Positions 20,567-43,387 of a DNA stretch of 64,000 nt are shown here, piece after piece. Source of the stretch: Siderastrea siderea (Eukaryota > Cnidaria > Anthozoa > Scleractinia > Rhizangiidae); the NCBI GenBank assembly GCA_964030785.1, contig OZ034970.1, forward strand, positions 34,264,443 to 34,328,442, written 5' to 3'. A program made the position numbers and the translations under genes. Every line of letters starts with the position of its first letter. The stretch's first letter is position 1. Below the pieces are notes generated by a model that did no database searches, was not told where the DNA came from, and saw nothing but the letters and a program-made list of their open reading frames with translations.

Positions 20567-23500
20567 TTACACTGGAGGGAATGTCTGGTGCAACTTTGAA
20601 ATTTCTTCTTGGATGGAGAACTTTACACTCTTCCTCAGAAATTTTAGATCGTTTTGTGAAAAGCTAGGTCTCCAAGATTCAAATGGTTTGTCTTGACTGT
20701 CTTTTAGAAACTCTGCAAAGCATTTCATGACATAGAGTCCACAGTCTTTGTCATTTGTTTGTCTCGGGACAACTGGATACTGAATCTCTTCAATAACTAG
20801 GGTTTTCTTCATTCCATGTGGCTGTCGTTTCTCCTTCGCAGCCCATTCATCTTGTAAATACCTCTTCACAGTCTTTTCGAGGGAGCCATGTGTGCCATTT
20901 AAAGAATCAAGAATCATGATAGATGTTGTTTTGTCATTTTTTATGATAACTAGAAGCCAGTGCAAGTCCTTGCATATCGGCATGAATAGATACCTCTTGT
21001 AAAATATGTCAATGTTTTTGGTCCACTTTCTAATGGCTTGAGGGTTGAATTGAATTAATTTTTTGTAGAAGCATGAATTGTAGATAAATGTTTGTTTCCT
21101 CATTATGTGATCGAGATGAGTCTCAGCAGTGAAGAGTAGAAAGAAATCCAGCAGGTCATCATTTACTTTTTTACCATGCTCGAGACAGCTGGCAAAAGTA
21201 TTGAATAAATCAATTCCACCCAAACTTGTGCGATAAGTCAAAAGTGACTTAATGGGTAGTATAAGACGTTCGTCACTGCTTACTGGCTTTCTTTCTCTGA
21301 CTTGCAATGTCATTGCTTCAAATGCAAGGTCATTTTGATTGATTACTCTCTCTGAAGTTGCATGCTCCACGAAACATCTAATATAATGAAGAAGGCTCAT
21401 GTAGTTAGGAAATTGCAAAACAACTGAACTGCCTTGGTCATCTATCATTCCAGCAGAGTCTCGGGCATGTGAATCGACAACATACCACATGCTATAGCTG
21501 TGAGCACAGGCTATAGTATATTCCAGAATCCGAAGCACAACTCCTACTGCCTTGCATTCTTGACAGTTTTCAAATATATTCTCTAATCCTGCCAATTCAT
21601 CTGCATGTATTACCTCCTTCTTATCGATTGTACCACCCGTTATATTTGTTTCAAAACAGAATTGGAATTCAAAGCACTGCACCTCTGAAGGTAGCTCATC
21701 CAGGGCTAACCTGGAGTCACTATGGACGGGTCTTCCTAGGTGGCACAACTGGAGGAAATGCAACGTGTCCCCGACAAACAAAACGTGATCAAGGTCCCGC
21801 CCCTTCCAGTTATCAATTGGTTTCACTGTGTTATATAGTAGCGCTGTTAGTGCTATCGCAGAGCACTGCTGGCCTGGATAATGAAAATCTTGATGCTGTG
21901 ACTGATGAAATGACCCACTGCAGACCATGGATGGTGCTACAATATCCTTGGTTCCCTGCACCTGTTGCGGCATACCCCAGTTTAATGGTGGTTTAGCTAT
22001 ACTTTCTTTTGTCAGACTTGATGAATACCTCGCTTTTGTAGCAGATCTTTCATTTGATGAAGTATTTTTGGGTGAGCTGGTCTCATCGTCACTGTCTGTT
22101 GATGTAACTTCAAAGGAATTGAAGGTTGAGAGGGACTGCCTAAATTTGTAACCATTTGACTTCCCCTTCTTTTTTTTACTTTTTAATACCCTGTCTCTTT
22201 TCCTAGTTATTTTAGTGCTTGATGAAGGTTTTGGCAATGGAAGACTTGTATCATTCCTGTGAACATTGATTTCACTGGCATCTTTTGTCTCTAACCCAAC
22301 ATCTTCCACAGGGTATTTCACTTTCTTTCCACCATTTGTTTGGAAACTTACATTTTTCCTCTTTTGCTGGCTTCTCTTTCTCGAATTATCTGAGAACTTG
22401 CTATTCTTTTCTTCAATGATATTTGACCATCTTCCTTTGCCCCTCTTGTTATCATGCTTCTGGACATCTGAACACTTGGCCTTTTTTAGTGGGCTCTCAG
22501 TTTCATCTTTTGTAGTATGCTTGCGAACTCTTCCTCTCCGAGAAACTGTTTGGAACTGTACAGGCTCTCGAAATGAAGAACTTGGCAGCCACATGTCTTC
22601 AGGACCATACCCCTTAAACCGGACCTTGTACTCTTCTGAGTGGTACTTTCTGTTCAAACGAACATCAAGAATTTTTTCCACTTCATAAAATTCATCATCA
22701 TTCTCTTCACTGGATTGAAGATCATCATCATGTAATGGAACAGGTTTTTCCAACCAATTTTTGAGATCCATTTGGCTGTCCTCAGATAAGACAGTTAGAC
22801 CATCTTCATTTTTATCAAGAGTTACTTCACAAATTATTCTTCTCACAGGCAACCACTTAGAAACAAAAACACTTGACATGAAGCCATATTGATTAGATGC
22901 AAGTTCCCTGTTCTTGTAAACTTGACCTCTTACAAAGCACTTTGATCTTGAACTTGTACTGACCAATTCTTTTCCCTCTTCAGATAAAATGGAAAGGATG
23001 TGAACAATGAAGAAAGTGTCCCCATTTGCATCTCTAAACTGTATGATATCATGAGTTGGGTCTATAGGTGTCATGGTTTTATGTAGATCGTTTGCTACCC
23101 AGTGACGTCGGCTTCTTTCCTTGGATATGAACTCTCTTGGAATAAGAAGTTTCAGAGCTTTGTTTATGTGTATCATTTCTCCATTTCTTTCGATGTACCA
23201 CTTTTGCTTTCCTTGACTGAGGTTTTTACTTGCTTTTTCTTTTAAATTCTCTTCCTCATCACTATCTCCATCACTGTTTGTTCCAAAATCAACATTCATT
23301 TCATTCAAATCAACTTCCTTATCATCTCTTCCACAGTCTGCAGTTGGCATTATAAATTCTTCTTCTCTTTCAACCAAGTCTTCCATTTCTACTTCTGTTT
23401 GTACTTTCTCTAACAAGTTGGCGTCAACGGAAACATCAAGCTTGTCATACGTACGAGGCTGATTCGAAACTACAATTATGCCTTTTGGCTTAGGAAATGT

Positions 23501-24876
23501 GTAGGGAAATTCCCATGAGCTGTTCTCCATTAAACACCTTTGGAATTCAGACGGCAAGTATTCCTGTACAAGTTCTTGAGCTGCTTTAATGCCCTCTTTA
23601 TGCATGTGTTGCTGTCTTTTCAAGAACTCCTCATAAGTGTTTGGGTACTGGTACGTGTTTGGTTTCATTTTTGAGGTACGGAAGTGAGAAAGTTTTCTGT
23701 TGCTTGTGGCTGGGATCTTGATGTGCTCATAAGGGGATAACTCTGACAGAGCTTCAGTAAGAAATGTCAGGTCTTTTGTTTTACTAATCATCTCTGCAAA
23801 TGTAGGAGCTGTGTCTAGAGACTGTAGTTGATTAGTCTTGCCCTGTAACTGTCCAATAATTCTTTCAGTAGCAATTGTTCCAGAGCGATGTAGAGAACAG
23901 GCCTTTGGTCCAAGATTTTTAAAGTGCAAGTACATTGCCAGACAGTGTAATGAACCGGCTGAGAAGAGCAATTCTGCTGTAGTGTACGCCCCATAGGTAA
24001 TAAAGTGACCACGCTTTTCTTTCAATTTTGCTGCATTAGCTTGAGAGTGCAGTTTCATTTTTTTTATTTCAAGGTATTTTTTCCAGAGTCTAAAAATCAT
24101 TATCCCAGTTGACAATGCTTTCTGGATTTCTTCAGGTGTTCCAAAATTGGGATCAAAAAATGGTTCAGTTAAATAGTAAACAGCAATCAAATAAAGGCAT
24201 GTTCCATCTGATCCCTTGACATGTTCATGGAGCATTTCTGCAACTTTAGATGTAAAAATTCTGTTTGCAGTGTCAGGTCGCTGGTCAAAGAAGCTTATCA
24301 AGAGGAGATCATTTGTAGAGAATGGGACACTCTGGCCTTTTTTCTGACATATGGACATAAGCTCTTGTAAGTGATTGATTGTTGCAACAATGCTCCCACG
24401 TTCATCCTTGAAGAAGGTCAGATCTCTAGTATCATATTTAAGCACACGGAGAAATGTCCGTCTCAAGTGGTCATAATCACCATAGGAAATACTAGGTAGC
24501 CGCCAAAAATATGGTGCTACAAATTTCTCATCAGGAATTCCTAATCCTAAATAGTAAATTCCCTGTGCTACAGTTGATTCTGTTGGTGTCATCAGCTGGA
24601 TAGAAGCAGAAAGTGAAAAACCAGCAGAGTCTGTTGAGTGACCAATAAGACTGACCTTCTTTTCTGCACAATCTTTCCTCACTTTTTGCCAGATTTTTAA
24701 TAGATGAGTTCCGCTGTATCCCTTCTTGGGTGTGGGCCACATCAGATAGACCAATGGTTGTGACTTTTCTCCAGTAAGGTTACACAAGTTATGAATTGCC
24801 ACTTTCGCTGCTAGTTTGCCTTTGTCAATTATTCCTTGTACTGTCCGTTGCAGCGCAGAGAAGTCATCTGTATCTC
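20567..24876 (-). CDS. Gene A last exon: DDE-like, chromodomain, C76-like and Ulp1 peptidase domains
   Basis: The acceptor TTTGTTTACAG/GA supplies two bases that complete the Gly codon begun in exon 26,719-26,830. Residues are counted from the open frame at 24,886. About 1-350: transposase-like, with LIGHSTDSAGF (D86), FFDQRPDTANRIF (D201) and TIATERIIGQLQG (E341) as candidate acidic residues. 500-560: acidic. 732-779: chromodomain, EFYEVEKILDVRL to YKVRFKGYGPEDMWLP, cage-like Tyr734, Phe757, Tyr760. 780-960: basic, Ser-rich, nuclear-localisation-like runs. 1003-1170: GQQCSAIALTALLY (C1008) and YVVDSHARDSAG (D1138, H1140), C76-like. 1255-1400: Ulp1/SENP fold with H1309 (KDLHWLLVII), D1327, Q1375 and C1382 (PRQTNDKDCGLYV), all four active-site residues present. 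Expected chemistry is cleavage of ubiquitin-like proteins from substrates. Stop TAA at 20,567. Transposase identity is the weakest call. Confidence 0.85.
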
Positions 24877-24887
24877 CTGTAAACAAA

Positions 24888-26718
24888 CAGAATTAAGATT
24901 TACAAAAAATAATAGAAATTTGGTCTAACATTAAATGATTCCAGAATTTGTAAAAAATACATTTGCAGCAATAGACTGATTCAAAATTCATACTTAAGTT
25001 AAACAGTAATTGTAAATTTCTTTTCAATTATTAGGTGTGAAAAGAAGGGTAAACTAAAGAATAATTTTGGGTTTTCAAATTTCTTCCGATTTTTGAGGAC
25101 ACTGTAATGTAAAACCAAATTACAAGGAATAAAGCTAGAAACCATTAATTTTCTATTTAACATCTTTAAAAGCTGTTTACATAAACACTGTTCAAAATTG
25201 TTTTCAAATAAAAGATAATGTTTAAGTTCATTAGAATCCGTCTTGAAAACCTGTCTTCCAGTTTCTGTCAAAGGTTTTCATTTTTTTAAAAACCAAGTTT
25301 AATTAACCATGTTTAGTTGGTGTGAAAGGGGCAGCACATGTACTTATACAGAAAACAAATGCATAAAAGAACAAGTGGATTAAGAACCTCCAGACTTTTA
25401 TATATGAACCTTACAATAAATATATGAAGAATTATTCAGGCTGACCTTGAAAAAAGTAGGTTCTTAAATGTGGGTGTTAACTGTATTTATTTTTATGTTG
25501 CTGCTTAGTGCATCTATGAAGGTTTTTTTGCTGGCTAATTCAAATTATTTTGACAGCTCGGACTGTTTCTACTGCCCAACCTCCATTTCCATGTTGCATT
25601 CAATGAGTACCTGATCTCTGGAGGGTCTTTTTAAGGAAATACTCGTTGTAACCAATGAAGCTGTGATTCCTTTTTTAACCCTAACTCACAGAGTGTGTTT
25701 AACATGTAATAAACTTCTCCACATAATTTTATACATTGTTCAGTAGACAGGAAAACTTAGCAGCCACAGGGTGAACATGTTGATTTCATCTTATTTACTG
25801 TACAAGGAAGTGTATAGCAGCTAGAAATGAGCAATACTAATCAGATCTTGGAAGTTTAAGGGCTAAGAGTCATTATTTAGACTGGTCATAAAGCACAGGG
25901 GGTGGGCTGCATGCTTGTAAAAGAGGGTGGGCTTAGGATAAGCCATGCATCATTTAAGAGGTGGGGCATGTAATAGTTTGTTTGTTTGTTTTTTTGTGGC
26001 ATCAAATGGTGTCTTTTGATAACATGCCAGCATAACTGCAAACTTGGGAATTTCGCTCTTTCCCTGAGCCCCCTATCCTCCAGAATTTCCAATTCCCTCC
26101 TTGGGTGGGTTATAGATATTTTCTGGAATTACACATTCACACATCTGTGGTTATTAATGAAACATAATAGATGCAAATCATTTTCTCAAAGTCATTTCAG
26201 GTATATCAAGAAATAGATCTCATGCAATGATAAACTGGGAAAATAAGACTTTGTATAATATTTTTCATCTAGAGTCAACTTTCCACTTTGAATGCTATTG
26301 TTCATCATGATCTTTACAAACATAGGACATAAAGTACAGGGAGAAGGGGCGGGGGGGGGGGCGGAGGCTGGGAAAAATTATCATTTTACGAAGTCTTGTT
26401 TTATGTGATCTTACTGTTATTTACTGGTGATGGGTCATTTCATTTTTTACAGACAAATATGGGTGTGCCAGGCATTATCATGCAAACATTTTAGGGTAGG
26501 TCACATAAAACTGGCCTTCATATTAATGAATATTTCCTGCTTACCACCCCCCCCCCAACCACCACCCTGCCCCACTCCCCTGTATTTTATAACCAGTCCC
26601 TTACAATCTTCTACTTTCTGGAATGTTAACTTTTATAATAACAGCACTGTTAGATTCATAATTGTAAGAAATGCATTTATTTACAAAAGAAATATGGTCA
26701 TAATTGGTCATTCCTTAC
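24888..26718 (-). other. Gene A intron
   Basis: Donor GTAAGG at 26,718, acceptor TTTACAG at 24,877. AT-rich with homopolymer runs (poly-G near 26,350). No inserted element recognised. Confidence 0.6.
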
Positions 26719-26830
26719 CCAGTTTGCTATTTTTTCTTGGAATTTGCATGACATCATTCTCCCATCTATCTATATCACCACTCCAAGAATTGCCGATCAG
26801 TGTCACCTCTCCTTTATCATCTTGAACGGC
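26719..26830 (-). CDS. Gene A internal exon (112 nt)
   Basis: Acceptor ATTTCTTCAG, donor CTGG/GTAAGG. It encodes VQDDKGEVTLIGNSWSGDID and ENDVMQIPRKNSKL, and its final G joins GA of the next exon to make Gly. The frame is open with no stop. I recognise no separate domain; it probably forms the first part of the transposase-like region completed in the next exon. The preceding exon must end in phase 0. Confidence 0.75.
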
Positions 26831-27469
26831 CTGAAGAAATCTGAGGGAAGTAATTTAAGTTAATACTAATTTAATAAATGCTGCAGTTTTTCTGGAGGCC
26901 TATTAAGCAGTGGAGTGTTCAATACTGTTTGAAGATTTTTTTCTTTTAACAATCAGTATCAGGAGATAGGGGCACAAGGCAGGACCAAAAACCACAAAAA
27001 ATGTAATTTAAAAGGGACAGTAAATCATATAAACAACACTAAGGCATCAATATCTGCTAGGTCTTGTACAGCCACAGTGCCACAGGTGCAAGCAAAAAAT
27101 TCACTACAAAACTCAAGGCCCCCATTCTTGGATTCCAACACAGTGGATTATAATTTGCTTAAAGGTTTGAGTCAGCTTTTGAAGCAATTAATTTTTACAC
27201 ACACTTTGTATGTTATTTCTGAGTGCATTAAAAAATGTACTCAACTATAACAAACTTGCTTGAATAATAAATTAGCCAGTTGGAATAAATGCCACCTTTT
27301 CACAGAAAGTATCACAAATAATCACCTGAAGAATTTTCATGTTTTGGAGTAAACAAAGCTGTTGCTATATTAACCTCTAATGACAGCATTTACTGTTTCT
27401 TTTTAAGCAAGTGAAAAAAAATATATAATCATTGACTGGACAAAATACACAAGGACTGCATTTCATGTA

Positions 27470-27655
27470 TTAAATTTTCTGTCCAATGCAATCTCCACAC
27501 CTCAATGCCCTTGCCTCATCACTGGCCTCTATCACAGGACCATCCAGATAAAGACACGCAGCTTGGTCCAACACATCTGAATTGTAACCTGGTTGCAAGG
27601 CTTCTTTCTTATTAAAGTTGTCACATGTTGTGCCACAAGGAAGACCAAACAAATC
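27470..27655 (-). CDS. Gene A internal exon, 3' limit uncertain
   Basis: The acceptor ACATTGCAG starts the exon in phase 0, matching the end of exon 28,251-29,771. The frame reads DLFGLPCGTTCDNFNKKEAL, DVLDQAACLYLDGP and EASDEARALRCGDCIG. It then reaches TAA at 27,470. No donor in the right phase is obvious before that stop: AG/GTGTGG after EARAL would give phase 2. Either an exon is missing between this one and 26,719-26,830, or the copy is damaged here. Confidence 0.6.
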   Translation of the reverse strand, partial: DLFGLPCGTTCDNFNKKEALQPGYNSDVLDQAACLYLDGPVIEASDEARALRCGDCIGQKI

Positions 27656-28250
27656 CTGCAATGTGTATTAATAACAATTAATACACAATTCATTAATGAA
27701 TTTATTATGATTCATTGTAATGATTCACCAAAACCCATATGGGAACAATGCAGAACTACATGAAATTAAGTGTTTATGGGAGATTTGATCTGAATGATCA
27801 AATCTAAATGGCATCCTGATATGAATATCAAATATTGTTTTTTGATTTCCATTTTCCTTCCCCGCATTTTTGCCGTTTAAAACGTAAAATTTTACTTCTG
27901 CTCATGTCAAAAACCGCGCAAAGGGAGACCTGGGGATAGTCATGTTTTGATGTCATTCCAGGAACGGAGTCGATGCCGAAACAAACTACAGTACGTGGGC
28001 CGCATTGCGGAGATCTAATACAGTCATTTTATTTTTCTTTTCTCCGCAACCGCCAAATTAAGCACAAAATTATGTGAAATCTGTCATATACACTTTAAGT
28101 TGCTTTTTACTCTGATGTGGCAAAGTCACAGGATGATACATGTAGCTTCAATCAAATAGAAACAATGACTATAATGAAACTAAATCCTGTGCAAGCAACC
28201 ATGCACTCATTCTCAGATATATTTTATTAACTTGAACAGAACAGACATAC

Positions 28251-29771
28251 CTTTGTTAACTTGTAGTTGCATTCTCCAAGCCTTATCTTGTGCATTTTCC
28301 CAATAGTTTTAATTAATGGGATGTAATGATGATTTACTGTCCCCTTAAGTTTGCCAACCAGATTTGTGAGTATTGCTATCTGTACAGGTCTTGTCACATC
28401 AATGTCTTGCTTGAACAAAGTGAGAAGGTCAACTATTAGTTTCTCCTGGTATCCATGCTTGCAGCTTTCATGTAGCATTTCCTCCCAGCCTTGGACACTT
28501 CTTTCTCTTTTCTTCAGTGCAGATACTGCTCTTGACACATTTTTGTTTTCAAGACTTAAGGAGTGGATAGTGGCTTTTACTTCAGTCTTCTTTGCATAGT
28601 CATGCCGAAATCCCCTTTTCCCCATCCTTGAGGCTGCAGTGTTCTTAAGTTTTCCTTCTGACCGCTTGTTGATTAAGTCAACGAGATAATGCTCTTGCTT
28701 GTGGCAGTTGTCACAGGTAAATGGATATTTGGGGTTTCCACTTGGTTTTCCAGTACATGGTGGATCAAGACTTTTTATGGTACCAGTTATCTTTTGTTTT
28801 ATTCCATTGTGAATGATTTCTCTGTTTAACAGTGAATACACTGCCCTGCCTGGCCTTGTTTCAGAAAGTCTTCCTGCTTCTTCAGGGTGCTTTGCTTTCC
28901 ACCCAGCCCATGATACACAATTTTCATGCCCCTTTTCTAAAAAACACTGGTACTTTCCCTTTTCTCTTTCTCTTTCAAACAACAATTTGCTTGAAACTCT
29001 GCGTATTGCCACATCCTCCTTGAAGCTCTCCACGACTTGTTTGTTTTGGTAAAACCCTAAGCACTGAGTCACTCTACTGTCACGTTCTCTGATTTTCAAG
29101 GCCTCAAAGATGGTTCTCTGCTTTGAAGCAGAAGGGTCTTCCTTTGGCAGAGAGAAGTCCTCCTTACTAGAACCAGTAAAGAATAGTGCAGCCATCTGGT
29201 GTACCTTTGTCTTTTGATGATCAGTAGCCTGTGCTACACCATCAAATTGGTGATGATCAACCTTAGACAGTTTATTGAACATACCTCGCTTAACACACAG
29301 TGCTTCATAGTGAGGACATATTGCACATTTTATAGAGACTCTTGTTCTGTTCCTTGGTGATTGACAACATACAGCAGTGAACTGGGGAATTACATCATTG
29401 ATAAAGGTGAAGCTTCTGAACTCATAGGCAGCAGTCTGGCAGACAACAATGGGTGGGAAGGCTACACTCAGAAAAGCTCTCACACAATTACTCAAGTGGC
29501 TGGTGCCATGTGTTGATTCCTGGTATATCTTTAATCTTTCTTCACTGCTTCTTTTTGATGATGGAAATGGGAACAACTCTTCAAGATAATCCTTAAAGCT
29601 AGACACACCAAGCTCCTCTGGCCCTATGTCTTTCACTGCCAAGTTGTTCCAACATCTTGAGTTCAAAAATGTTTTGTTACAATAGGATTCAAAAGAAGAA
29701 GGAACATAAATTGGTCCTTTGTTCTCGATAGGTTCTTCTATCCATGCATCCTCAGGCTGCTCAAACAACAT
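28251..29771 (-). CDS. Gene A Cys-rich exon
   Basis: A 1.5-kb open frame ends at AACAAAG/GTATGT. Recognisable elements are a Cys/His cluster VSIKCAICPHYEALCVK, a long basic/helical middle with REREKGKYQCFLEKGHENC, a second Cys pair in YPFTCDNCHKQEHYLVDL, and helical KERSVQGWEEMLHESCKHG. Two Cys-x2-Cys pairs suggest zinc-binding, perhaps DNA-binding, modules in front of the transposase-like region. I know no named family. The open frame starts with ATG at 29,771, which overlaps the end of the preceding exon by 11 bases in another frame. A single-base deletion in GATGTTGTTTGAG would explain this better than a true start. Confidence 0.75.
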
Positions 29772-30971
29772 CTGGTGAGTGGGTTTGTTCTTCTACTGTA
29801 GCTTCAGCTTGATCTTGTAAAGAATCCGGTGTCTGGATTTGGTCTTCAACTGCAGCTTCAGCTTGATCTTGTAAAGAAACTGGTGTCTGGATTTGGTCTT
29901 CTACTGCAGCTTCAGCTTGATCTTGTAAAGAATCCGGTGTCTGGATTTGGTCTTCTACTGCAGCTTCAGCTTGATCTTCTAAAGAAACCGGTGTCTGGAT
30001 TTGGTCTTCTACTGCAGCTTCAGCGTGATCTTGTAAAGAATCCGGTGTCTGGATTTGGTCTTCAACTACAGCTTCAGCTTGATCTTGTAAAGAAACCGGT
30101 GTCTGGATTTGGTCTTCAACTGCAGCTTCAGCTTGATCTTGTAAAGAATCTGGTGTCTGGATTTGGTCTTCTACTGCAGCTTCAGCTTGATCTTGTAAAG
30201 AAACCGGTGTCTGGATTTGGTCTTCTACTGCAGCTTCAGCTTGATCTTGTAAAGAATCCGGTGTCTGGATTTGGTCTTCTACTGCAGCTTCAGCTTGATC
30301 TTGTAAATAATCCGGTGTCTGGATTTGGTCTTCTTTTGCAGCTTCAGCTTGATCTTGTAAAGAATCCAGTGTCTGGATTTGGTCTTCTACTGCAGCTTCA
30401 GCTTGATCTTGTAAAGAATCCGGTGTCTGGATTTGGTCTTCTACTGCAGCTTCAGCTTGATCTTGTAAAGAATCCAGTGTCTGGATTTGGTCTTCCACTG
30501 CAGCTTCAGCTTGATCTTGTAAAGAATCCGGTGTCTGGATTTGGTCTTCAACTGCAGCTTCAGCTTGATCTTGTAAAGAATGCGGTGTCTGGATTTGGTC
30601 TTCTACTGCAGCTTGAGCTTGGCCTTGTTCCGGTTGATCCACTGGAAAATCAAGATCTGCTTGTGGGGTCTCTTCATCTGCTGGAGCCAACCTTCCTTGA
30701 GATCTTTGTATGATCCCTTTTATTTGTTTCTTGCCCCTGGTTAGCTTTACATTTTTGAATGAATGATGTTTACCAAATACATGACGGCCAAGGCATTCAA
30801 AGAGGGCCCTCTGGTTTAAGGTGCTCTTCTCAACATTAAAGTGGTTGGCTACTTTTTCGAAGAGTTCTGATTTAAGGATTCCATCACCCCTATCAAAAGA
30901 TACTTCATAGACACCATCAAGCCACTGAATTAACTCTTGGGGGCAAATGTCTTTAAAATCCTTTTTAGGGC
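29761..30971 (-). CDS. Gene A exon with 18-residue acidic tandem repeats
   Basis: The acceptor TTCTGTTTTTAG supplies GC, which completes the Gly codon left by exon 31,219-31,285. The first 115 residues look folded: DICPQELIQWLDGVYEVSFD, LFEKVANHFNVEKSTL and ECLGRHVFGKHHSFKN, then the basic VKLTRGKKQIKGIIQR. The overall pattern is like a winged-helix DNA-binding module, but this is only an impression. Then come sixteen 18-residue repeats of the form DQAEAAVEDQIQTPDSLQ, acidic and Gln-rich. The frame ends TGA at 29,761. The repeats read through without indels, so the array is maintained in frame. Confidence 0.8.
29797..30615. repeat. 54-bp coding tandem repeat (about 15-16 copies)
   Basis: The unit TCTTGTAAAGAATCCGGTGT...CAGCTTGA repeats every 54 bp, for example at 29,828 and 29,882. 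Copies differ mostly at one codon (Pro/Leu, Asp/Val, Asp/Tyr). The length is a multiple of three, so copy number can change without loss of frame. The opposite strand is also open, but only because of the repeat. Confidence 0.95.
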
Positions 30972-31218
30972 CTAAAAACAGAATAAGAGTTAGACTAAGA
31001 AGTGCCCTCATTCTAACCTGGGCTTTATTGCAATTCATAATTATCTGAACTAAAATGTCACAATAACGAGCATTACAATATGAGGAAGTAACCAATTTGG
31101 GAGTAAGGCTGTCCTGCACACAGCATACAGAGCATGATCAAAGATAAATTTAATGCATTTCTAACTAAAACAGGGATTTCATTCTTTCCAGAACAATTTT
31201 TTTGTTGCTTTTCATTAC

Positions 31219-31285
31219 CTCCTCCAGAAACAGGGCCTTCCACTAATGCCAGACATATGATTGAACACTTGAAATCAGCCAACTT
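31219..31285 (-). CDS. Gene A exon: C-terminal part of the ubiquitin-like domain
   Basis: A 67-nt exon (acceptor AAAAGATCAG, donor GGAG/GTAATG) encodes KLADFKCSIICLALVEGPVS followed by Gly-Gly and the first base of a third Gly. Read after exon 32,625-32,769, it lines up with the end of ubiquitin, where Asp-Tyr-x-Ile is followed by a beta strand and Gly-Gly. Phase is correct on both sides. The Gly-rich end falls exactly before the next exon, where a processing peptidase could cut. Confidence 0.75.
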
Positions 31286-32769: not shown

Positions 32770-33031
32770 CTGAAAAAGATAATTATTAATGTTAATATCA
32801 TCGTGGTGGATTTTATAATAAACTTTTGAGGGAAGTCTTGGATTCTGACATATACCAATCTTAATAAACAACTCTGCCACAAGCATACTTGTACTTGTAT
32901 GATTTTAAGGTCACTCTGAGAGAAAACGTTTTCAATCATTACCCCTAAATATACATTTTGCACTAAAACACAAAATGCTCCCATGTTTGCAACTGCAAAT
33001 TAACTTCACACTATACACTCAAATCACTTAC

Positions 33032-33132
33032 CTCATCTTCAGGCTGACAGACATGAAGTAAGCCTCCCTGTTTAATTCAGTTGAAATGAAATGTCCTCCT
33101 CTACATTGCATTTTTCCTTTTTGTTTATTAAG
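33032..33132 (-). CDS. Gene A exon (101 nt) leading into the ubiquitin-like domain
   Basis: Acceptor TGTTTTTGTAG, donor GATGAG/GTAAGT. It encodes LNKQKGKMQCRGGHFIST and ELNREAYFMSVSLKM, then two bases that pair with the next exon to make Ser. Phase 0 at the start agrees with the upstream exon. The last ten residues probably form the start of the ubiquitin-like beta sheet. Confidence 0.7.
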
Positions 33133-33179
33133 CTACAAAAACAAGGGAAGGTTTATTATTATTATGAATCATTATCATG

Positions 33180-33211
<32 letters not shown>

Positions 33212-33212
33212 C
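33180..33212 (+). repeat. (TTA)n microsatellite
   Basis: Eleven TTA triplets just upstream (on the minus strand) of the acceptor of exon 33,032-33,132. Confidence 0.95.
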
Positions 33213-33836
33213 ATTATAAAAGGTGGAAAAAATGGAAACTATAGGAGGAATCAAACAAGCAATCAAATAGCTATCATGGCTTCAAGCATCATACAACTTA
33301 AATGTTGCTTTGAAAATGGTGTCTGTCTGCTATGTTATTGCATCCAAATGTTACTTTATAGAAAATATCAGACTCCAAAACCTAGGAATGGCAGCCATGA
33401 AGAACCATCACATAAGTTGTAATGACTAATGTTGGTGAGGTTTTCCATTCTTTTTTTTCCTTGGGGGCAGCCAGGCTCTTAATTTTAATAGGAAAAATAG
33501 TTGTCATCTTGGACAACCAGACAACTGCTAATTTCAATGATCGTCATGAACGTCGTCATTAAAGAAACTACACTGTATATATCATGACTGTATGACCTTA
33601 TGACTGTATGAAAATCTTTTACATGCAAGAGCTCTTTAGTAAATAATCTCAACAGCTTTACTACCACATTTTTTAAACCTCCTAATAAGTTACCAGGAAC
33701 AGGGACTTAACTTTATGAGTACAATATTAATTTTTTTTATCTTTTTCTTTATGTTGTCACTTCATAAGAAGTAGTACCTGTACCTGGTTTTTCATAGATA
33801 CTCTGAAGGCATAATCTTCTTGTTTTATTCTCCCAC

Positions 33837-33986
33837 CTTTTTATATCTTATTCTTTTTTTCTGAGCAACAGGAGAGACATTCCTCTTTCTCAACTTTCTG
33901 TGCTTAGCAACACAAGCGTGCGCATCATAGCTTGGTTCTGGTTTCCTGAAACACCTCCTGTACTCTTCCAAACTGCACAAAGCACT
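33837..33986 (-). CDS. Gene A exon 2 (50 codons), basic
   Basis: Acceptor TTTTTTTATAG, donor AAAAAG/GTGGGA; exactly 150 nt, phase 0 at both ends. It encodes SALCSLEEYRRCFRKPEPSY, AHACVAKHRKLRKRNVSP and a Lys/Arg-rich end, so it may carry a nuclear localisation signal. Cys and His spacing (LC, RCF, HAC) could be half of a zinc-binding module. No family assigned. Confidence 0.65.
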
Positions 33987-35039
33987 CTATAAAAAAAAGA
34001 AAGATTTACATTGTTTGTATTCATTTCAAAGATGCAGAGTAATTTGCAACAGTCGCAATTTTACAGATATCCCACGTGACCATGTATTTTTATTCAAACC
34101 ACGTGTAAATATTGTTGATTAAAAAGGAGTATATTGTACACAGTCATCACCATAATGTCAAACTACAAATGTAAAATAAAAAAATTCGGGTACTGACTAA
34201 ATCATAGAAAAGCTCAAGAAATGAAAATTGTTGGAACAGAAGGTTCTTAACCTTGTAACAATTAAAATAAAGGTAGAGTACTGTTAAAAGTGCTACTCAA
34301 GGAACATAACTATTTTTAACTGATGCAAAATGCCTTATAAGAATCTGCAGTAAACAAGACAACCACAATTTTTACATTACGAACAGTTTCGTGTACAGCG
34401 TAGCTTGCATTCTGGGTGTCATTACTATGAGATGTGGATCGACACCCCTCCTCTACCTTCTGTTACTGGACCCCTCAATTGGACCCCATTTGTACCCCCA
34501 ACTGGATCCCTTTTTGTTGTGTACCCATTTTTTGCCCTAATGTGGGCCGGTCCTATTAGAAACCTAACACCAGACTGCCTTCTAATTTTATGAACCAGTA
34601 TTCTAGCAATCCAGCACATTTCATGTCCAGAGAATTTAGTAACATACTTGAGATGTTACTACATGTATAAACAGTGGAAAGACAAGAACAAATTTCACTG
34701 TTCTCCGAGTACTCTCAAACATGTAAATTTTCCCCAACTCCAAGTGAGATTCCCTTACTTTTTCCGACCTGGATTTTTCCCTGACCAGACCATCAATACA
34801 ATTTACAATTTACAATTTACCAGACCAATACAATTTAAATTACAGAAAACATACCTGAACTCCTTGAACAATGCAACATCTAACTAAGACAGTCACATAT
34901 AACAAGGCAACACTGCTTTAACACCACATATTACACTACCTTCCAAAACGTTATTTAACTCAGCAAATAAGCTATTAATCACCATACATGTATATATATG
35001 TACATAGGTTTACACAAGAGATCAAAGCCAAATCTTTTA

Positions 35040-35758
35040 TGAGAATTTCTATGCCCTGTATGTCACTTGAAAGTAACGGCAAACTTTCTACCAGGAAGTG
35101 ATACGGGAACTTCTGTGACACATCCAGGCTTACAAAATGAAATGAAATTTCTGCCAATCTTTCATTGAGAATTTTTCTATGCCCTGTATGTCACTTGAAA
35201 GTAACGCTAAACTTTCTTCCAGGAAGTGATGCGGGAACTTCTGTGACACATCCAGGCTTACAAAATGAAATAAAATTTCAGCTAAATCTTTCATTGAGAA
35301 TTTTTCTATGCCACTGTATGTCACTTGAAAGTAACGGCAAACTTTCTTCCAGGAAGTGATGCGGGAACTTCTATGACACATCGACGTTTACAAAATAAAA
35401 TGAAATTTCACCCAAATCTTTTATTCAGAATTTTTCTATGCCCTGTATGTCACTTGAAAGTAACGGCAAACTTTCTTCCAGGAAGTGATGCGGGAACTTC
35501 TGTGACACATCCAGGCTTACAAAATGAAATGAAATTTCAGCCAAATCTTTTATTGAGAATTTTTTTATGCCACTGTGTGTCACTTGAAAGTAACGGCAAA
35601 CTTTCTACCAGGAAGTGATGCGGGAACTTCTGTAACACATCCAGGCTTACAAAATGAAATGAAGTTTCAGCCAAGTCTTTTACTCAGAATTTTTCTATGC
35701 CACTGTGTGTCACTTGAAAGTAACGGCAAACTTTCTTCCAGGAAGTGATGCGGGAACT
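35040..35758 (+). repeat. 130-bp satellite, left block (about 6 copies)
   Basis: Start points of the word TCACTTGAAAG at 35,063, 35,191, 35,321, 35,450, 35,580 and 35,710 give a period of 128-130 bp. Other unit words are TTCCAGGAAGTGATGCGGG and ACACATCCAGGCTTACAAAA. The last copy is cut off after GATGCGGGAACT, where the 6.1-kb element begins. Confidence 0.95.
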
Positions 35759-35782
35759 GCCCGTGCAAAAAAGCGTCCTGCT

Positions 35783-36057
35783 TGGGTCGGCCCGGGCTGG
35801 CCGGGGCCGTCCCCACAGGGCCGGCCCAGACCGGCCCAAAATTAGCATTTTTGAAAAATGCTAATGAGAAGCCGGCCCTGGCCGGCCCGGGCCGGCCCAA
35901 GACAGACATATGACAGGGACTGGCCCACCCTGGACCAGGACAGCCGGGGCCGGCCCCAGCCGGCCCAAATGGAAAATATTTTCTGCTTTTCAGGCCAGCC
36001 TGGGCCAGTCAATCCCAAGCCATTTTTTTGTTGTTGTTGTGGACCTGACCAGTCCTA
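35783..36057 (+). repeat. GGCCGGCCC subterminal array of element 2 (left)
   Basis: Very GC-rich stretch of overlapping GGCCGGCCCGGGC, CCGGCCCAGACC and similar words in an AT-rich region. Equivalent arrays lie at 41,595-41,830 and 60,931-61,135, in each case next to the GTGCAAAAAA terminus. Subterminal repeats of this kind are binding sites for transposases in several superfamilies. Confidence 0.9.
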
Positions 36058-36390
36058 AGCTAGTCAGGGCAGCCATTAACTGAAAAAGTGGCTACATTTT
36101 TACAGTTACTTTGTTTAATTTGCTTTTAATAAAGGAAAATGTGCTTTCCTCCAATTTAAAGAAACTTGACCCCTGAACAAGAAATAAAACACAGAGACCT
36201 GTATTCATTCATGACTAGTTTATTTATAAATTACCCTTAATTTACAACTATTAGATCAGATCTTAAAATTTAAGTATAAAACAAGGCTTACCGTTGTTTT
36301 ATACATGTGTATAACATTTTGAAATCTGATGACATTACCAACCGAAAGCACTGTTTAAAAAAAAAAACTGAAATACCAGTCAATTTGATT

Positions 36391-36497
36391 TTACAGTGCT
36401 CCTGGGGGAAACTGCTTTAAGAAATTGTTTACTGCAAGTCCACATTCCTGATCTGTCTTCAAATCTTCAGGAAGCAGAAATCTTTCCTTAAGAAGTT
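36391..36497 (-). CDS. Possible terminal exon inside element 2
   Basis: The minus-strand acceptor TTTTTATTTACAG is followed, after two bases, by LLKERFLLPEDLKTDQECG and LAVNNFLKQFPPGAL, then TAA. The acceptor is strong and the peptide looks natural, but no upstream exon could be tied to it. A donor at 39,144 (AAAAGAG/GTAAGAG) has compatible phase. It may be the last exon of a gene carried by element 2. Family unknown. Confidence 0.35.
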
Positions 36498-36588
36498 CTG
36501 TAAATAAAAAATAAAAAAAAGGTCTGTCACATCATGTCATGGTTCGTTAGGTAGCACACCATCTCAAATTTCAGGAAAGTCCTTGTAT

Positions 36589-36745
36589 AGACTGCAATTA
36601 GTCTCTAATTTTGGCAGTGGCGATTGTGTGGTGGGCGAAATACAAACACGCGCGCACAGGTCTCCTCGAAATTTCGTGCACGCGCATGTGTGTATTTCGC
36701 CTGCCCCACAAATCGCCATTGCCAAAATTAGACTACTCGCAGTCT
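36589..36745. mobile_element. 157-bp MITE with perfect 11-bp duplication
   Basis: The inverted ends AGACTGCAATTAGTCT and AGACTACTCGCAGTCT (imperfect complements) are extended inward by an AATTTTGGCA..TGGCGATT arm. AGTCCTTGTAT flanks it at 36,578-36,588 and 36,746-36,756 without mismatch. Size and duplication fit a Mutator-type MITE. Confidence 0.9.
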
Positions 36746-36758
36746 AGTCCTTGTATTA

Positions 36759-38609
36759 CACTCAAACTAAGAAAACCGTGAACACTGAAAATATTTCTGG
36801 AATGTTCATTGTGTTAATACTGTTTTGACCAATCACATGTGAGACCTTGCAACCACAGAAAACGAATGGGTTTCCAAGTCACAGAATCAAGTTGGTTCTC
36901 AATCTGTTTCAAAAAACCTCAAGATTTAAAGAGCCAGTGTCACCCAAAGTGCTTTGCGCGCCGAGGTACATTTCTCATATATCAAAAATTCACCATTTTT
37001 TTGATTGTCGTGAAGTCTGATTTGTATCTTCTTCCATCGCTGCCGTTAGCGATCCGAAAGCACTAGTGTGTGTCGCCGTATCGATTTCGTTGTATATTTC
37101 TGAATTCTGAAGTGTTTTCGCGGTGGAGAAGGAGATCTTTAAATTGAATGCCTCGTAGGGTTCAGGAAAGTTAAGGCGAAGGCCGAGTCTTCCGTGCTCT
37201 GCCAAAGGTGTACGGCCGAAGGAGTCCGTGTATCAGTAGCAGAGGGAAAGAAAAACATCTATGGGTTTAAGCAATAGTACTGACACTGTGCTTGTCGAAA
37301 TAGTGCTACATTCGTTGCCAAATGAAAACAGAAGGAACGTTGATTTACCACAAAATAACAGTAGCTATGGGCTTGCTCCAAAATAGTGCTTATGGTAATG
37401 TGCTCACTGTCTGTTTATGTTTTATTTTTACAAAAAGTGTAAGTGGCTATTCTGGTTTTGCGTCCATTGACATCAGTCGATGCGATCGATCGCGCAATCA
37501 ATCGATGGGACTGTAATAGATCCATGTATACGCATTGAATGCAAAGTCATATCTTGAGTAGTTTTCTCCAATGGCATCTAGCGATGAAGACGTCAATATT
37601 TTTGCTAGTTGTTTTTGTCTTGTTATTTTTATGTCGAGTGGAAGTGGCTACTCTGGTTTTACATCCATCGAGATCGATCAATTGATTGATCAATCGATCA
37701 GTTGTTATGAAAGCTCCATACGCGTTGACTACAAAGTCAGATCTAGAGTAGTTTTCTCCGGTAACATCTAGCGATGAAGATATTACTATTTTAAGAGGCT
37801 ACTACTGTAAATATCAGCTTGCTGAAAGGCCAGTGCGGCAGGGTATAATTTGTGAAACGTCCGGCAAACGCGCCAGCCAAACTTCAAACAAAAACACAAC
37901 CGCGCAAAGCACTTTGGGTGACACTGGCTCTTTAACCTTCATTGTTATCTTACAGGAATTGAAAGTGCTATTCCTTTCTATCTGAGAACCATGTGCACTA
38001 CGCAAGCAAAAATAAGTTTGAGCGCTTTTGGATCTAATAAATTTTTGGACAAGCTGATGCAACAATAAGACATTTCAAATAAAAGCAACTCAAGCTGCAC
38101 TTATTTCACTGTGATATAAAGATGCAATGTTCTTCCTCAAAATTCACCCAAAGCTGCTGTTAATTCTGATAGCAGAGCTGACTCAATTTACTTAGGCCAA
38201 AACATCCATGCGTTCGAGACGGGCTTGCAACATACAATGTCTAGTTGCAAATTTTAAACATGACAGTTTCAAATTTAACAATGGTACTGAGTGAGCAGGC
38301 TGTTAAAAATTAACAAACACCGGTTTCGACAATCTGTGGCTGTTGCTACAATGCAGCGGCAACCGCTGAGCCAAAGTTTTCGCTTGCGCAGTGCACGTGA
38401 CTCTCAGATAGAGAATAACAATCTAAGTTCCTGTAAGTGAAGATGAAGGTTTAATCTTGAGGTTTTAAGAAACAAAGTGAGAACCAGATCCGTTCTGTGA
38501 CTAACAAACCCATTTGTTTTGTGGTTTCAAGGTCTTGCACGTGATTGGTCAAAACACAATGGACATTCTGAGAAATATTTTCAGTGTTCATGGTTTCTAA
38601 GTTTGAGTG
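36759..38609. mobile_element. CACT-terminal element with about 250-bp arms, nested in element 2
   Basis: The left arm from CACTCAAACT (36,759) pairs with the right arm ending AGTTTGAGTG (38,609). Common arm words include GAACACTGAAAATATTTCT, TTTTGACCAATCAC and ACCTCAAGAT. TA flanks both ends. The TTAA MITE at 36,930-37,931 is inserted into the left arm, whose pairing resumes beyond it (CCTTCATTGTTATCTTACAG opposite the right arm at about 38,420-38,445). Without the MITE the element is about 845 bp and non-coding. CACT ends suggest the CACTA/EnSpm superfamily. Confidence 0.75.
36930..37931. mobile_element. TTAA-flanked MITE, copy 2 (1.0 kb)
   Basis: It has the same AGAGCCAGTGTCACCCAAAG ends and TTAA flanks (36,926-36,929; 37,932-37,935) as the copy at 31,751-32,267, but is about twice as long. 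An internal segment (TTTTCTCC..GGCATCTAGCGATGAAGA) is present twice, and there are GATCGATC-rich palindromes near 37,480 and 37,680. It is inserted in the left arm of the CACT element. Confidence 0.9.
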
Positions 38610-39189
38610 TAGAACTAAAAAGACTGACTTGAAATTATTATTACAACTATCATCACAGGATCTTTTTAAACTTTAGTGTGAAACCAATGGTGTGTAACAT
38701 GGACTGATTTACAACCTGCTCAATGGGCATTTCATCTGAGAACATTAATATTGTGCTAAAGTAAAGAGCCATTTAGGTCTTGATAAGAAACTATAAAGGA
38801 ATCCAACCCTTTTCAGCAACAAATCCAGTTTTGCCTTCTTCTTCTTCTGATAGTTCACTAGTTGAATGTGGAAATCAGACAAATTTGTATTTGACTATTC
38901 CAGTAAGTTCCGATCAAGAATTTACTCATTTGCACGAACGCTTTCAGCTAAATTGTCACTTTACATTCAAGCTTATTAAAGTCTTACATAGAATTTTGCT
39001 TTGAAAGGACATTTCAAGACAACATTGCTTCATTTTAATACATGACAATTGAGAAATCTAACCATTCGCTCGGGCGATTGAAGTGAGAAATATCTGCGAG
39101 CTTCGAATTCTACGCCAGAATATGAACATTTTCCCACTCTTACCTCTTTTCAGACAGCCTGGGTCATTGCTTCTTCTTCAACCACTCGA

Positions 39190-39411
39190 AATTGTTCCAT
39201 AACCGAAGCGTTTCAGAGAAAAAACGTAGAATTAAGCAGTAAAATGCAGTTCTACTCTAAACAGACTCGATCTATTCAAAACCACGCGCCCAAACTCAAA
39301 CTTCGCACTTTTCCATTCTTTCAAAGACACACGTGACGGCGAACTACAAATGCGCATGCGTTTGTGATCTCACGGCCTCCCTGGGAACTAGCATGCTCAA
39401 AATCAAACATG
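39190..39411. promoter_or_regulatory. CpG-containing promoter-like region with NRF1 motif
   Basis: ATGCGCATGCG at about 39,351 contains the palindromic NRF1 consensus (YGCGCAYGCR), next to an ACTACAA word. CACACGTGAC lies upstream, and AACATGGCGGA at the ATG at 39,409 resembles a YY1/initiator element. Such a cluster is typical of TATA-less housekeeping promoters in animals. A minus-strand GTAAGAG donor at 39,143 suggests it could work in both directions. Function is inferred from motifs only. Confidence 0.4.
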
Positions 39412-39672
39412 GCGGACGAACTAGTGCTGTTCAACGTTCAGCACGAAGAACAAGGGGTCGTTACACAAAAGATATGCAACATTGTTATATTTACAAGAGC
39501 TAAGCGACAAGGACAAACTTGTATTTGTTATTCCACGCGAAAAATTATCCATTTACAAGTCTTTTATGGGGGGAAACAGATAGGAAAGCAACGAACACTA
39601 CAGCGGACATTGAAACACGTGTTGTACGTCACTACTGAAGAAAATTCACTTAGCAGAAGAAAGTCCTTTTAG
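39409..39672 (+). CDS. Hypothetical short ORF downstream of the promoter-like region
   Basis: ATG at 39,409 has a good Kozak context (ATCAAACATGG). It opens 87 codons beginning MADELVLFNVQHEEQGVV and passing ICNIVIFTRAKRQGQTCICY to a stop at 39,672. An earlier in-frame codon exists, but the Kozak and YY1-like context favours 39,409. No homologous family recognised. It could be the first exon of a longer gene, but no clear donor stands out. It lies inside element 2, so it may be carried cargo. Confidence 0.35.
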   Translation: MADELVLFNVQHEEQGVVTQKICNIVIFTRAKRQGQTCICYSTRKIIHLQVFYGGKQIGKQRTLQRTLKHVLYVTTEENSLSRRKSF

Positions 39673-40198
39673 CATGAAGGACTGAACAAAGAGAGTTTTA
39701 AAAAGGAGAACAGTGATAACAGGTCCAAGTATCTCACAGTGGAACTCATTTGTAAAGAGGACAAAAGTTCAGTCTTAAATGACACTCAACTGAATACGTT
39801 GAACAAAGATTAAGGTGAGCTCAGCAGAACAACAGTACACTTTGCCAATGATAAGTTTACTTTTGATGACTTTTTAAGCTGACTAAGCTTCAATGGATGA
39901 GATTGTATTAATGGTAAAAGATAATAAATTTTTCTGTCACAAAAGTGATTGTTCCTTAATTTGAAAACCTTTTTTAAGTTCTCAATATTCCACTCCCTTT
40001 CAAACAGCAAATGCTGGCCTGTGGCATGTAAAGCGTACAGCCACCCAAGTGCAGGCTGCTGTGAACAAGCTGGGGAACACTTCATTTGTTTGATGTTTAA
40101 GTCAAGCTTCAGTTCACCAACAATTTTTGTTAGCTGGGAAACCCTTCTGTTATGTAATCTTTGCTTGTTACAGAATGATTTCTTATGATCAAACTGAA

Positions 40199-40355
40199 AT
40201 AGGCCTGTGAACAGGCTCTCTGGTCGGGGAAAGAGCGAAGAAAACAAAGGGCAAGAACAAACAGAGAGACAGGGAGGGGACTATGCTCCACTTGCTCCGC
40301 TTGCTGATTTATTTTTGCACTTTTCCCCACTGCAGAGCCTGTTCACAGGCTAAGC
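40199..40355. mobile_element. Foldback MITE, AGGCCTGTGAACAGGCTCT type
   Basis: TAGGCCTGTGAACAGGCTCT at the left and AGAGCCTGTTCACAGGCTA at the right are inverted copies. TA appears at both edges, as for a 2-bp duplication. Interior has no coding capacity. Confidence 0.7.
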
Positions 40356-40453
40356 TGAAATTCACACAACAAGGGGCATACTTGCCACTGCATGATATTG
40401 TTTTAAAACCAGACAAACAGCTATACACATAAAGCTCTCAGTAGCTTTGTATT

Positions 40454-40494
40454 ATAATTTGGTAAATTGTGATCATCACAATTTACCGAATTAT
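40454..40494. repeat. 20-bp-stem palindrome
   Basis: ATAATTTGGTAAATTGTGAT is followed after one base by its complement, with one mismatched position. It would form a cruciform or hairpin. No flanking promoter or gene is seen. Confidence 0.85.
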
Positions 40495-41109
40495 GACATG
40501 ACTCCTGGGTTCAAACCATTTATAGTAGCTTTGTATTATACACAGTGAAGCACTAGCTGTGCTATCCAACACACATTTTTGACTTCATTTACCAGAATTA
40601 CAGAATTGTTGTGACTAGGTTTGTCAATTATTATGAATCCTTATATTTAGCAAAAAGGAAAATAATGTAGCATGTCAATCCCAGGCTATGAAGCTTCGTT
40701 TCCACTTAGGAGAAGGAGAGCATTCAAACAGAAAACAAGAAAGGAACAAAATCTCTTCTGGATAAATGAACTTTAAATGAAGCATGTTTACTGGACATGC
40801 AAGTGAGGGCAGCACTTTCATCTCACACATGACTGGAACAAAAAAATTGTAGTTACACAACTGGGAATGCCAAAATCAAATTTGAGCAAATTGGTGAGTG
40901 ATCATGACCACAAAAGTTAGTAATAAGAACTTTAAAGATCTTAAAGCTCCATAGAGTTTCCACAGACTGATGTACTCTTTGGGAAATTTATCATGGGACA
41001 TTCACCTTTGGTGGAGAGAGGGTTCAGAATGCAGAATATATTATTTACATATTTGAATATATTATTTAACAGATGATAATTTTGCATGTTGTAAGTATTT
41101 CGGCAAGTA

Positions 41110-41594
41110 TTTAGGCCATGGGGCCTCTCTACATTATGTAGGGTTAAGCACTCATTCCAGAGACAATTGGCTTTCAGTTATTGTTTCACAGTCACTTGAC
41201 AGTTACAAGACTTCAATGATGACTTTTAAGGATTCTCTGGTCTGCAAAAACCCTGCCAAGAAGTCTTGACTTTTGAATGTAACTCTTAAATGGACTGCCA
41301 ACTATCTGCTCAAGTTGGAACAGTAGATCTATATGAATTGATTATATAACTGGATGAGTCCAATTGAACTTCTTAAATTATTGCCAGAGACTCAGTGTTA
41401 AAACTAAAAATCATTTATATTAATTCACTGTTTATCCAGTGTTCTAATCCTGGCTACACTGCAGTAATTCCGAAAACTGTTAGCTGACCATATCTGACCT
41501 GACCTGACTTGTAACAGAAATGGCTCAGGTCATCTACCCAAGAAAACTGTTCAGGCTGGCCTTGACATTTGCCAGTCATTATTGCCTTTATTCT
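41110..41594 (-). repeat. Element 2 right subterminal unique segment, shared with the 61-kb copy
   Basis: Read in reverse, blocks here recur in the same order at 61,140-61,680: GATGACCTGA, TCAGCTAACAGTTT, CCAGGATTAGAA, TTTAAGAAGTTCAATTGGA and ACTGTCAAGTGAC. This shows the two TIR copies are one family, not chance ends. Confidence 0.8.
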
Positions 41595-41830
41595 ACCAGA
41601 CCAACCTAGCCAGCCCATGACTGGCCTGGGCCGCCCTGGGCCGGCCCTGGCCAGTGAATAGCCAGAGAAAATTGAAGTTGGCCAGCCTTAGCCGGCCCGG
41701 GCCGGCCAAGGCCATGCTGGGCCAGGCCAGTTTTCTGGCCTGGGCTGGCCCAGGCCAGCTATGGCAGGGCCAGGCCGGCCTGGGCCAGGTAAGGCCGGCC
41801 CAGGCCAGCCTGGGCTGGCCCGAGCAGGAC
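41595..41830 (-). repeat. GGCC-rich subterminal array of element 2 (right)
   Basis: Mirror-image counterpart of 35,783-36,057, with CCAGGCCAGCCTGGGCTGGC words, adjoining the terminus at 41,831-41,846. Confidence 0.9.
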
Positions 41831-41846
41831 ATTTTTTTGCACGGGC

Positions 41847-43315
41847 GAGTTCTGTGACACATCCAGGCTTACAAAATGAAATGAAATTTCAGCCAAATCT
41901 TTCATTGAGAATTTTTCTATGCCCTGTATGTCACTTGAAAGTAACGGCAAACTTTCTTCCAGGAAGTGATGCGGGAACTTCTGTAACACATACAGGCTTA
42001 CAAAACGAAATGAAGTTTCAGCCAAGTCTTTTACTCAGAATTTTTCTATGCCACTGTGTGTCACTTGAAAGTAACGGCAAACTTTCTTCCAGGAAATGAT
42101 GCGGGAACTTCTGTGACACCTCCAGGGCTTACAAAATGAAATGAAATTTCAGCCAAATCTTTCATTGAGAATTTTTCTATGCCCTGTATGTCACTTGAAA
42201 GTAACGGCAAACTTTCTTCCAGGAAGTGATGCGGGCACTTCTGTAACACATCCAGGCTTACAAAATGAATTGAAGTTTCAGCCAAGTCTTTTATTCAGAA
42301 TTTTTCTATGCCACTGTGTGTCAATTGAAAGTAACGGCAAACTTTCTTCCAGGAAGTGATGCGGGAACTTGTGTGACACATCCAGGCTTACAAAATGAAA
42401 TGAAATTTCAGCCAAATCTTTCATTGAGTATTTTTCTATGCCACTGTGTGTCACTTGAAAGTAACGGCAAACTTTCTTCCAGGAAGTGATGCGGTAACTT
42501 CTGTGACACATCCAGGCTTACAAAATGAAATGAAATTTCAGCCAAATCTTTCATTGAGAATTTTTCTATGCCCTGTATGTCACTTGAAAGTAACGGCAAA
42601 CTTCCTTCCAGGAAGTGATGCGGGAACTTCTGTGACACATCCAGGCTTACAAAATGAAATAAAATTTCTGCCAAATCTTTCATTGAGAATTTTTCTATGC
42701 CACTGTATGTCACTTGAAAGTAACGGCAGACTTTCTTCCAGGAAGTGATGCAGGAACTTCTGTGACACATCCAGGCTTACAAAATGAAATGGAATTTCAG
42801 CCAATTCTTTTATTGAGAATTTTTCTATGCCACTGTATGTCACTTGAAAGTAACGGCAAACTTTCTTCCAGGAAGTGATGCGGGAACTTCTGACACACCC
42901 AGGCTTACAAAATGAAATGAAATTTCAGCCAAATCTTTCATTGAGAATTTTTCTATGCCACTGTATGTCACTTGAAAGTAACGGCAGACTTTCTTCCTGG
43001 AAGTGATGCGGGAACTTCTTTGACACATCCAGAAGAAGTTCTGTGTCACATCAAGGCTTACAAAAAATGAAATTTCAGCCAAATCTTTTATTCAGAATTT
43101 TTCTACGCCACTGTATGTCACTTGAAAGTAACGACAAACTTTGTTGCAGGAAATGATGCGGGAACTTCTGTGACACATCCAGGCTTACAAAATGAAATGA
43201 AATTTCAGCAAAATCTTTTATTGAGAATTTTTCTATGCCACTGTACGTCACTTGAAAGTAATGGGAAACTTTCTTCCAGGAAGTGTTGTGGGTATTTCTG
43301 TGACACACTGTAACC
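41847..43315 (+). repeat. 130-bp satellite, right block (about 11 copies)
   Basis: Same unit and orientation as 35,040-35,758. TCACTTGAAAG-type starts occur at 41,931, 42,061, 42,190, 42,321, 42,451, 42,580, 42,710, 42,840, 42,968, 43,118 and 43,247. The open frames on the minus strand are by-products of the repeat. Confidence 0.95.
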
Positions 43316-43352
43316 CACTTGAAGTCTATTAAATGTAATGGGAAGCTCTCAC

Positions 43353-43387
43353 CTCTGAAGCCATCTTGAACAAAACAGGAAACAATC
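43353..43387 (-). CDS. Gene A putative first coding exon
   Basis: A small exon between CTATATTTCAG and GAG/GTGAGA carries CAAGATGGCTTCAGAG: an ATG at 43,364 in strong Kozak context, then Ala-Ser-Glu, ending in phase 0. Exon 33,837-33,986 starts in phase 0. The acceptor implies at least one non-coding exon further upstream. The link is plausible but rests on splice sites and phase alone. Confidence 0.45.

Follow-up and report, generated by a model that had tools for sequence, protein, structure and literature searches.

A probable giant transposon in damaged form from a coral, of a group joining chromatin-reading and predicted ubiquitin/SUMO peptidase domains to a P-like core

Peptidase domains are found with transposon proteins in several described systems. 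Ginger1 transposases, many of them in Hydra, have a C-terminal Ulp1 or OTU domain but not both, and once a PHD (PMC2836005), and one sentence in PMC9741609 mentions that VTD genes of cnidarians occur in fusion with transposon-associated domains. Kyakuja elements have CA...TG ends and 7-bp duplications without terminal inverted repeats (TIRs; PMC12730594), the P superfamily has the signature D, D, [C/D](2)H, E (PMC8230255), and the coral miniature inverted-repeat elements of PMC2872659 are of the TTAA/piggyBac type, unlike the short elements described below. Here we analyze a 64,000-nucleotide stretch of Siderastrea siderea contig OZ034970.1 (positions 34,264,443 to 34,328,442, forward strand; the window), which holds what is probably a giant transposon in damaged form, of a group in which chromatin-reading and ubiquitin/SUMO peptidase parts are fused to a P-like core. 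We judge it probable that the locus is a 42.8-kb DNA transposon insertion whose gene encodes a P-fold D-D-E transposase with a BAH-like domain, a chromodomain and two papain-fold peptidases, acting by the mechanism proposed below. An earlier reading made from the letters of the window alone (the sequence-only reading) knew of no described family with its exact combination of domains; we also found none in the open literature, subscription journals and Repbase reports lying outside that scope, and the precedents are partial.

The insertion is delimited by inverted repeats at both ends and by a 6-bp flanking duplication, and the following features define it:

10782..53579, gene on the minus strand: whole transposon insertion, 42,798 bp
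10776..10781, plus strand: left target site duplication, TCTCTT
10782..10797, plus strand: left TIR, CAGGGGCACCCAACGA, 16 bp
10812..10823, plus strand: subterminal motif TATCTGTTCGGA, a candidate transposase-binding site, starting 31 bases from the left end
53457..53468, minus strand: subterminal motif TATCTGTTCGGA, starting 112 bases from the right end
53564..53579, minus strand: right TIR, 16 bp
53580..53585, plus strand: right target site duplication, TCTCTT

The right end at 53579 lies within 1 base of the limit of homology to a second copy (98%), which has sharp ends and sits on the same contig at a distance of 6 Mb (C5:28.2 Mb). In a diverged lineage represented by C9 and C12, the shared sequence stops at TCGTTGGGTGCCCCTG, the same 16 bases that end the match between the window and the second copy at 53579, and TATCTGTTCGGA lies 113 bases from the end. 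Comparison of the window with the second copy showed no inverted repeat because that copy lacks the left 762 bases; a reading without TIRs was dropped for the window because the C9/C12 end matched its right end. With up to 3 mismatches allowed, CAGGGGCACCCAACGA matched just twice in the window (0.22 expected; two or more matches in 3 of 100 shuffles), and the regions examined contained two exact ends in the window and one each in the second copy, C9 and C12.

The same ends recur throughout the genome, where CAGGGGCACCCAACGA has 1148 exact copies (582 forward, 566 reverse) and its reversed-string control none. Left-type ends, with TATCTGTTCGGA at 31, number 117 genome-wide, and right-type ends, found by the looser motif ATCTGTTC, number 590, with control counts of 0 for both; TATCTGTTCGGA occurs twice in the window. 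Among 100 places listed, 13 inward-facing CAGGGGCACCCAACGA pairs lay 398-418 bp apart. All six of the 13 that were sampled had perfect flanking duplications; four of these measured 6 bp, and the remaining two, which belong to one duplicated locus, 7 bp. At C2:35034344-35034384, 41 bases are identical to the left end of the window element and face a right-type end 2.6 kb off at C2:35031752; the pair is perhaps an internally deleted relative. Beside the second copy, at about C5:28254717-28255135, is a roughly 420-bp element with diverged ends of the same kind and both subterminal motifs. A left-type end at C4:71209927, near the C4 copy, was not counted as the end of that copy because its 42-base spacing is typical of the short elements.

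Within the insertion, the gene is read from the following exons:

29771..30971, minus strand: exon A, encoding the N-terminal domain and carrying a 54-bp tandem repeat in its coding sequence (open reading frame, ORF; upstream exon and start unplaced)
28251..29770, minus strand: exon B, cysteine-containing, coiled region of the transposase (tblastn with relatives, donor, frame)
27501..27655, minus strand: exon C, carrying the first catalytic Asp in VIEASDEAR (tblastn with relatives, splice sites, conservation)
26719..26840, minus strand: exon D (tblastn with relatives, splice sites)
20567..24876, minus strand: last exon, with the remaining transposase, BAH-like domain, chromodomain, VTD, Ulp1 and stop (ORF and acceptor)

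The junctions 28251/27655, 27501/26840 and 26719/24876 are all GT-AG and compatible in phase, and the three blocks upstream of the last exon are backed by tblastn with relatives. The N-terminal domain of exon A (from 30971) resembles, by eye, those of the C3, C4 and C11 relatives. Its tandem repeat, with an 18-residue unit, comprises about 16 units at 29780-30628 in the window; in the second copy it spans about 3.45 kb, a strong length difference. The C11 relative (C11:4607820-4615115) is one 2432-codon frame running from a Met at the N-terminal domain to an Ulp1-like domain at its end (Pfam C48, E 0.0011, just under the cut-off), and because this frame is single, the layout of core, chromodomain and peptidase in one polypeptide is obtained without need of splicing. 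The window gene and six relatives have VTD and Ulp1 after the core within one frame. Since one open frame is common to all of them, the union of chromodomain and two peptidases in one polypeptide is established at the level of sequence, as are the ends, the duplication and the conserved catalytic residues.

The domains of the last exon are placed as follows:

22757..23095, minus strand: BAH-like domain (tentative)
22568..22696, minus strand: chromodomain (profile match)
21284..21934, minus strand: VTD (C76-like) peptidase, with Cys1010 and Asp1140-x-His1142 of the 1441-codon frame
20582..21256, minus strand: Ulp1 (C48) peptidase, with His1311, Asp1329, Gln1378 and Cys1384 of the 1441-codon frame

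The last exon had been described as an open frame with chromodomain, C76-like and Ulp1 domains, and the frame, the domains and the catalytic residues of both peptidases were recovered. The chromodomain fell under the Pfam cut-off in the window and over it in several relatives, with a family profile giving E 2.8e-9; by eye, its aromatic cage reads Y-F-Y at what we take to be the cage positions. The VTD peptidase has both the Cys plus Asp-x-His residues and the VTD fold, and it was called from motif and fold, the C76 family not being listed in the local Pfam copy. The Ulp1 peptidase likewise has both His-Asp-Gln-Cys and the SENP fold.

The catalytic core is a P-element-type RNase H core with an insertion, and P-element transposase was its only strong fold match. 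The signature residues D, D, [C/D](2)H and E are kept in 33/33, 46/46, 46/46 and 45/45 alignment rows, respectively; we chose the catalytic Asp and Glu among the conserved ones from their conservation and the secondary structure predicted around them. Other superfamilies have the (2)H motif too. Neither exon B nor the C11 protein minus its first 39 residues had a THAP match listed by Pfam, NCBIfam gave nothing for two proteins, and a sub-threshold match to the P-element helix-turn-helix in relative P0045 (E 0.026) was the sole one of its kind. The inverted repeats, the 6-bp target duplication, the short non-autonomous kin, the conserved DDE residues and the transposase fold together bear out the earlier proposal of a transposon gene.

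The identity suggested for that gene, a KDZ (Kyakuja-Dileera-Zisupton) transposon, was not supported, and we now regard it as decidedly unlikely. A KDZ element would account for the large gene with Ulp1 and for the CA...TG ends, which Kyakuja has according to the available part of PMC12730594, and no KDZ structure was among the fold matches listed, hence none could be compared. Against it stand the 16-bp TIRs with 6-bp duplications, the strong P-element fold match, and six proteins with no Pfam KDZ match listed at E up to 10, a search in which HMMER filters drop most matches above 0.1 and whose library is taken to hold a KDZ model.

Several observations weigh against the reading as a DNA transposon with its own P-like transposase. 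The CAGGGGCACCCAACGA repeat is absent, with up to 3 mismatches, from the stretches examined of C3, C4, C10, C4b, C11 and the degenerate C13. C12 has a second candidate end that is imperfect and without target duplication, and the end with the motif at 113 lies downstream of the gene in C9 and C12 and upstream of it in the window, so that between its ends the gene has opposite orientations in the two. P-element proteins gave no sequence-level match, and their chains were absent among the 60 of 92 PDB profile matches listed. The second copy has its frame broken and interrupted by two in-frame stops, lacks the left end and misses one base of the right subterminal motif, and the ratio of nonsynonymous to synonymous substitution (dN/dS) between the near copies is just mildly low (0.57 and 0.30). 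In the window itself, comparison with the second copy shows a 2-base indel near 29.77 kb that breaks the frame between exons A and B; the window copy is probably inactive. Comparisons of the same kind gave no inverted repeats in C10/C4b, C3/C4 and C11, and no Helitron-type ends were seen by eye in the window/second copy, C10/C4b and C3/C4 comparisons.

Three observations would fit a passenger gene: relative to the ends, the window gene points the opposite way from those of C9/C12, the element is much longer than its short kin, and six relatives have no such ends in the stretches examined. On this view the repeats are those of a different transposon, moved by a transposase of its own, that captured the gene locus or was invaded by the gene. 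We consider this unlikely: two diverged gene lineages stop in the same repeat, within 1-2 bases of the homology boundary, and ten other window ORFs, six of them inside the element, had no Pfam match to a DDE transposase, smaller and spliced frames being unscanned. A domesticated host gene inside a segmental duplication might explain the sharp-ended 98% copy 6 Mb off on the same contig, as well as the introns. The TIRs and target duplication speak against it, the 6-bp duplication for the window copy, as do the dispersal of degenerate and open copies over many contigs and the damaged frames of both near copies, and we hold such an origin to be very improbable. Insertion of a DNA transposon carrying its own transposase gene remains our preferred reading.

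The ubiquitin-like (UBL) piece is not counted as part of this gene, although an unseen exon might still connect the two. The half UBL at 32625-32744 is a genuine domain, and its donor is in phase 0 while the next supported acceptor is in phase 1, which breaks the frame at a direct junction; in its own genome the piece has two matches, the window and the 98% copy. Of the parts claimed for the single gene, the DDE core, the chromodomain and the two peptidases are supported, and the UBL fusion is not.

Relatives of the protein allowed the peptidase part to be compared. With E limited to 1e-3, a first protein search gave 52 proteins; at the bottom stood a protease from a fungus that matched the Ulp1 part alone. 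The peptidase survey covered 98 proteins from three protein searches, sorted by motif patterns; the named relatives in these searches, from Oculina patagonica, Pocillopora verrucosa, Desmophyllum pertusum and Clytia, point to a coral-like animal. A chromodomain motif was present in 41 of the 98, and 25 of these extended at least 350 residues beyond it: VTD in six, all also with Ulp1 (precomputed Pfam), an MPDQP..SCGV Ulp1-like pattern in 11, NTCPID in two, USP in one (P0048; PF00443, E 1.5e-20) and no pattern in five. Of the pattern-less five, P0035 and P0039 have a similar Ulp1 motif by eye, P0062 has a weak C48 match, and P0017 and P0021 are apparently cut short. Across all 98, the counts were six for VTD with the core, 13 for MPDQP, three for NTCPID and one for USP; QTGCNDCG occurs in Clytia P0043 and a similar motif in P0046, P0067, P0070 and P0075 (weak Pfam C48 in P0067 and P0070). 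NTCPID is a cysteine motif only, and P0045 had no peptidase match. Open frames of 778 codons with VTD and Ulp1, the core not in the same frame, were found at C10:38501435-38503768, C4:11486154-11488487 and C1:58872335; those of C10 and C4b, the two compared, are about 98% alike with a dN/dS of 0.30.

These patterns may indicate a new cnidarian P-like transposon group with a chromatin-guided, ubiquitin/SUMO-editing transposase, in which a reader is combined with exchangeable peptidases (VTD+Ulp1, other Ulp1, USP, the unassigned NTCPID) and in which transposition, or escape from silencing, would constantly require ubiquitin or SUMO marks to be reversed at histone-methylated sites; we are evenly divided on this wider proposal. 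For the window gene, it is plausible that the protein would target chromatin and edit SUMO or ubiquitin. Its binding, activity and function we infer from the mechanism that seems likeliest. The protein would bind the ends at CAGGGGCACCCAACGA and, asymmetrically placed, the TATCTGTTCGGA sites, move the element by cut-and-paste with a 6-bp duplication, and also act in trans on the short non-autonomous copies of about 398 bp. The chromodomain may keep the complex on methylated histone tails, where the peptidases would strip ubiquitin and SUMO, either to shield the transposase or to reverse marks that the host sets in silencing or repair. If true, there would be transposases that bring their own chromatin reader and ubiquitin/SUMO erasers, with eraser types replacing one another at a single position. 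Why transposons carry such peptidases, a long-standing question, would then be directly testable, because the same genome has both a relative with an open frame and a short non-autonomous element to serve as substrate.

Other features lie in and around the element. Upstream of the gene, the element contains 130-bp tandem repeat arrays at 35026-35758 and 41850-43307, and a 69-bp array likewise lies upstream in the C12 and C9 relatives. Downstream of the gene, still inside the element, an ORF with a GSNACAFIAL cysteine motif (15826-16395, minus) had no Pfam match and none among the 52 relatives. Outside the element are a DUF7869 ORF (9329-10042, plus; E 4.1e-13), a histone 3' untranslated region stem-loop at the gathering threshold (54638-54683, plus; 34.1 vs 34 bits) and fragments at 56526-60642 (minus) that weakly match RT-RNase H (E 0.0073) and tyrosine recombinase (E 0.012) and may belong to a DIRS-type retroelement; a 366-bp tandem duplication (58236-58972) lies within this last region.

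Compared with known systems, the element has large transposase genes in common with KDZ and CA...TG ends as in Kyakuja (PMC12730594, in part); it differs from KDZ in its 16-bp TIRs, 6-bp duplication and P-element fold, with no KDZ profile match listed. The window VTD has the same Cys, Asp-x-His active site and fold as the tegument-like VTD deubiquitinases of Helitrons and herpesviruses, but is joined to a P-like DDE transposase, a chromodomain and Ulp1, a word absent from the available text of PMC9741609. Like Ginger1, the window gene has Ulp1 fused C-terminally to a transposase, whereas Ginger1 has a Gypsy-integrase-type core with a GPY/F motif and OTU or Ulp1 but not both, and the word chromodomain does not appear in the available text of PMC2836005. 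The P superfamily is nearest in fold; its features include an insertion that binds GTP and, in P-element transposase and THAP9, an N-terminal THAP zinc finger, to which the proteins scanned here had no match listed. P elements make 8-bp target duplications, against 6 bp in the window element and 6-7 bp in the six short elements. Because of the differences in the THAP finger and in the duplication length, we do not file the element as a member of that superfamily. Relative to the Drosophila P-element transposase, to which it has no sequence-level match, the chromatin-reader and peptidase parts are additions of the window gene.
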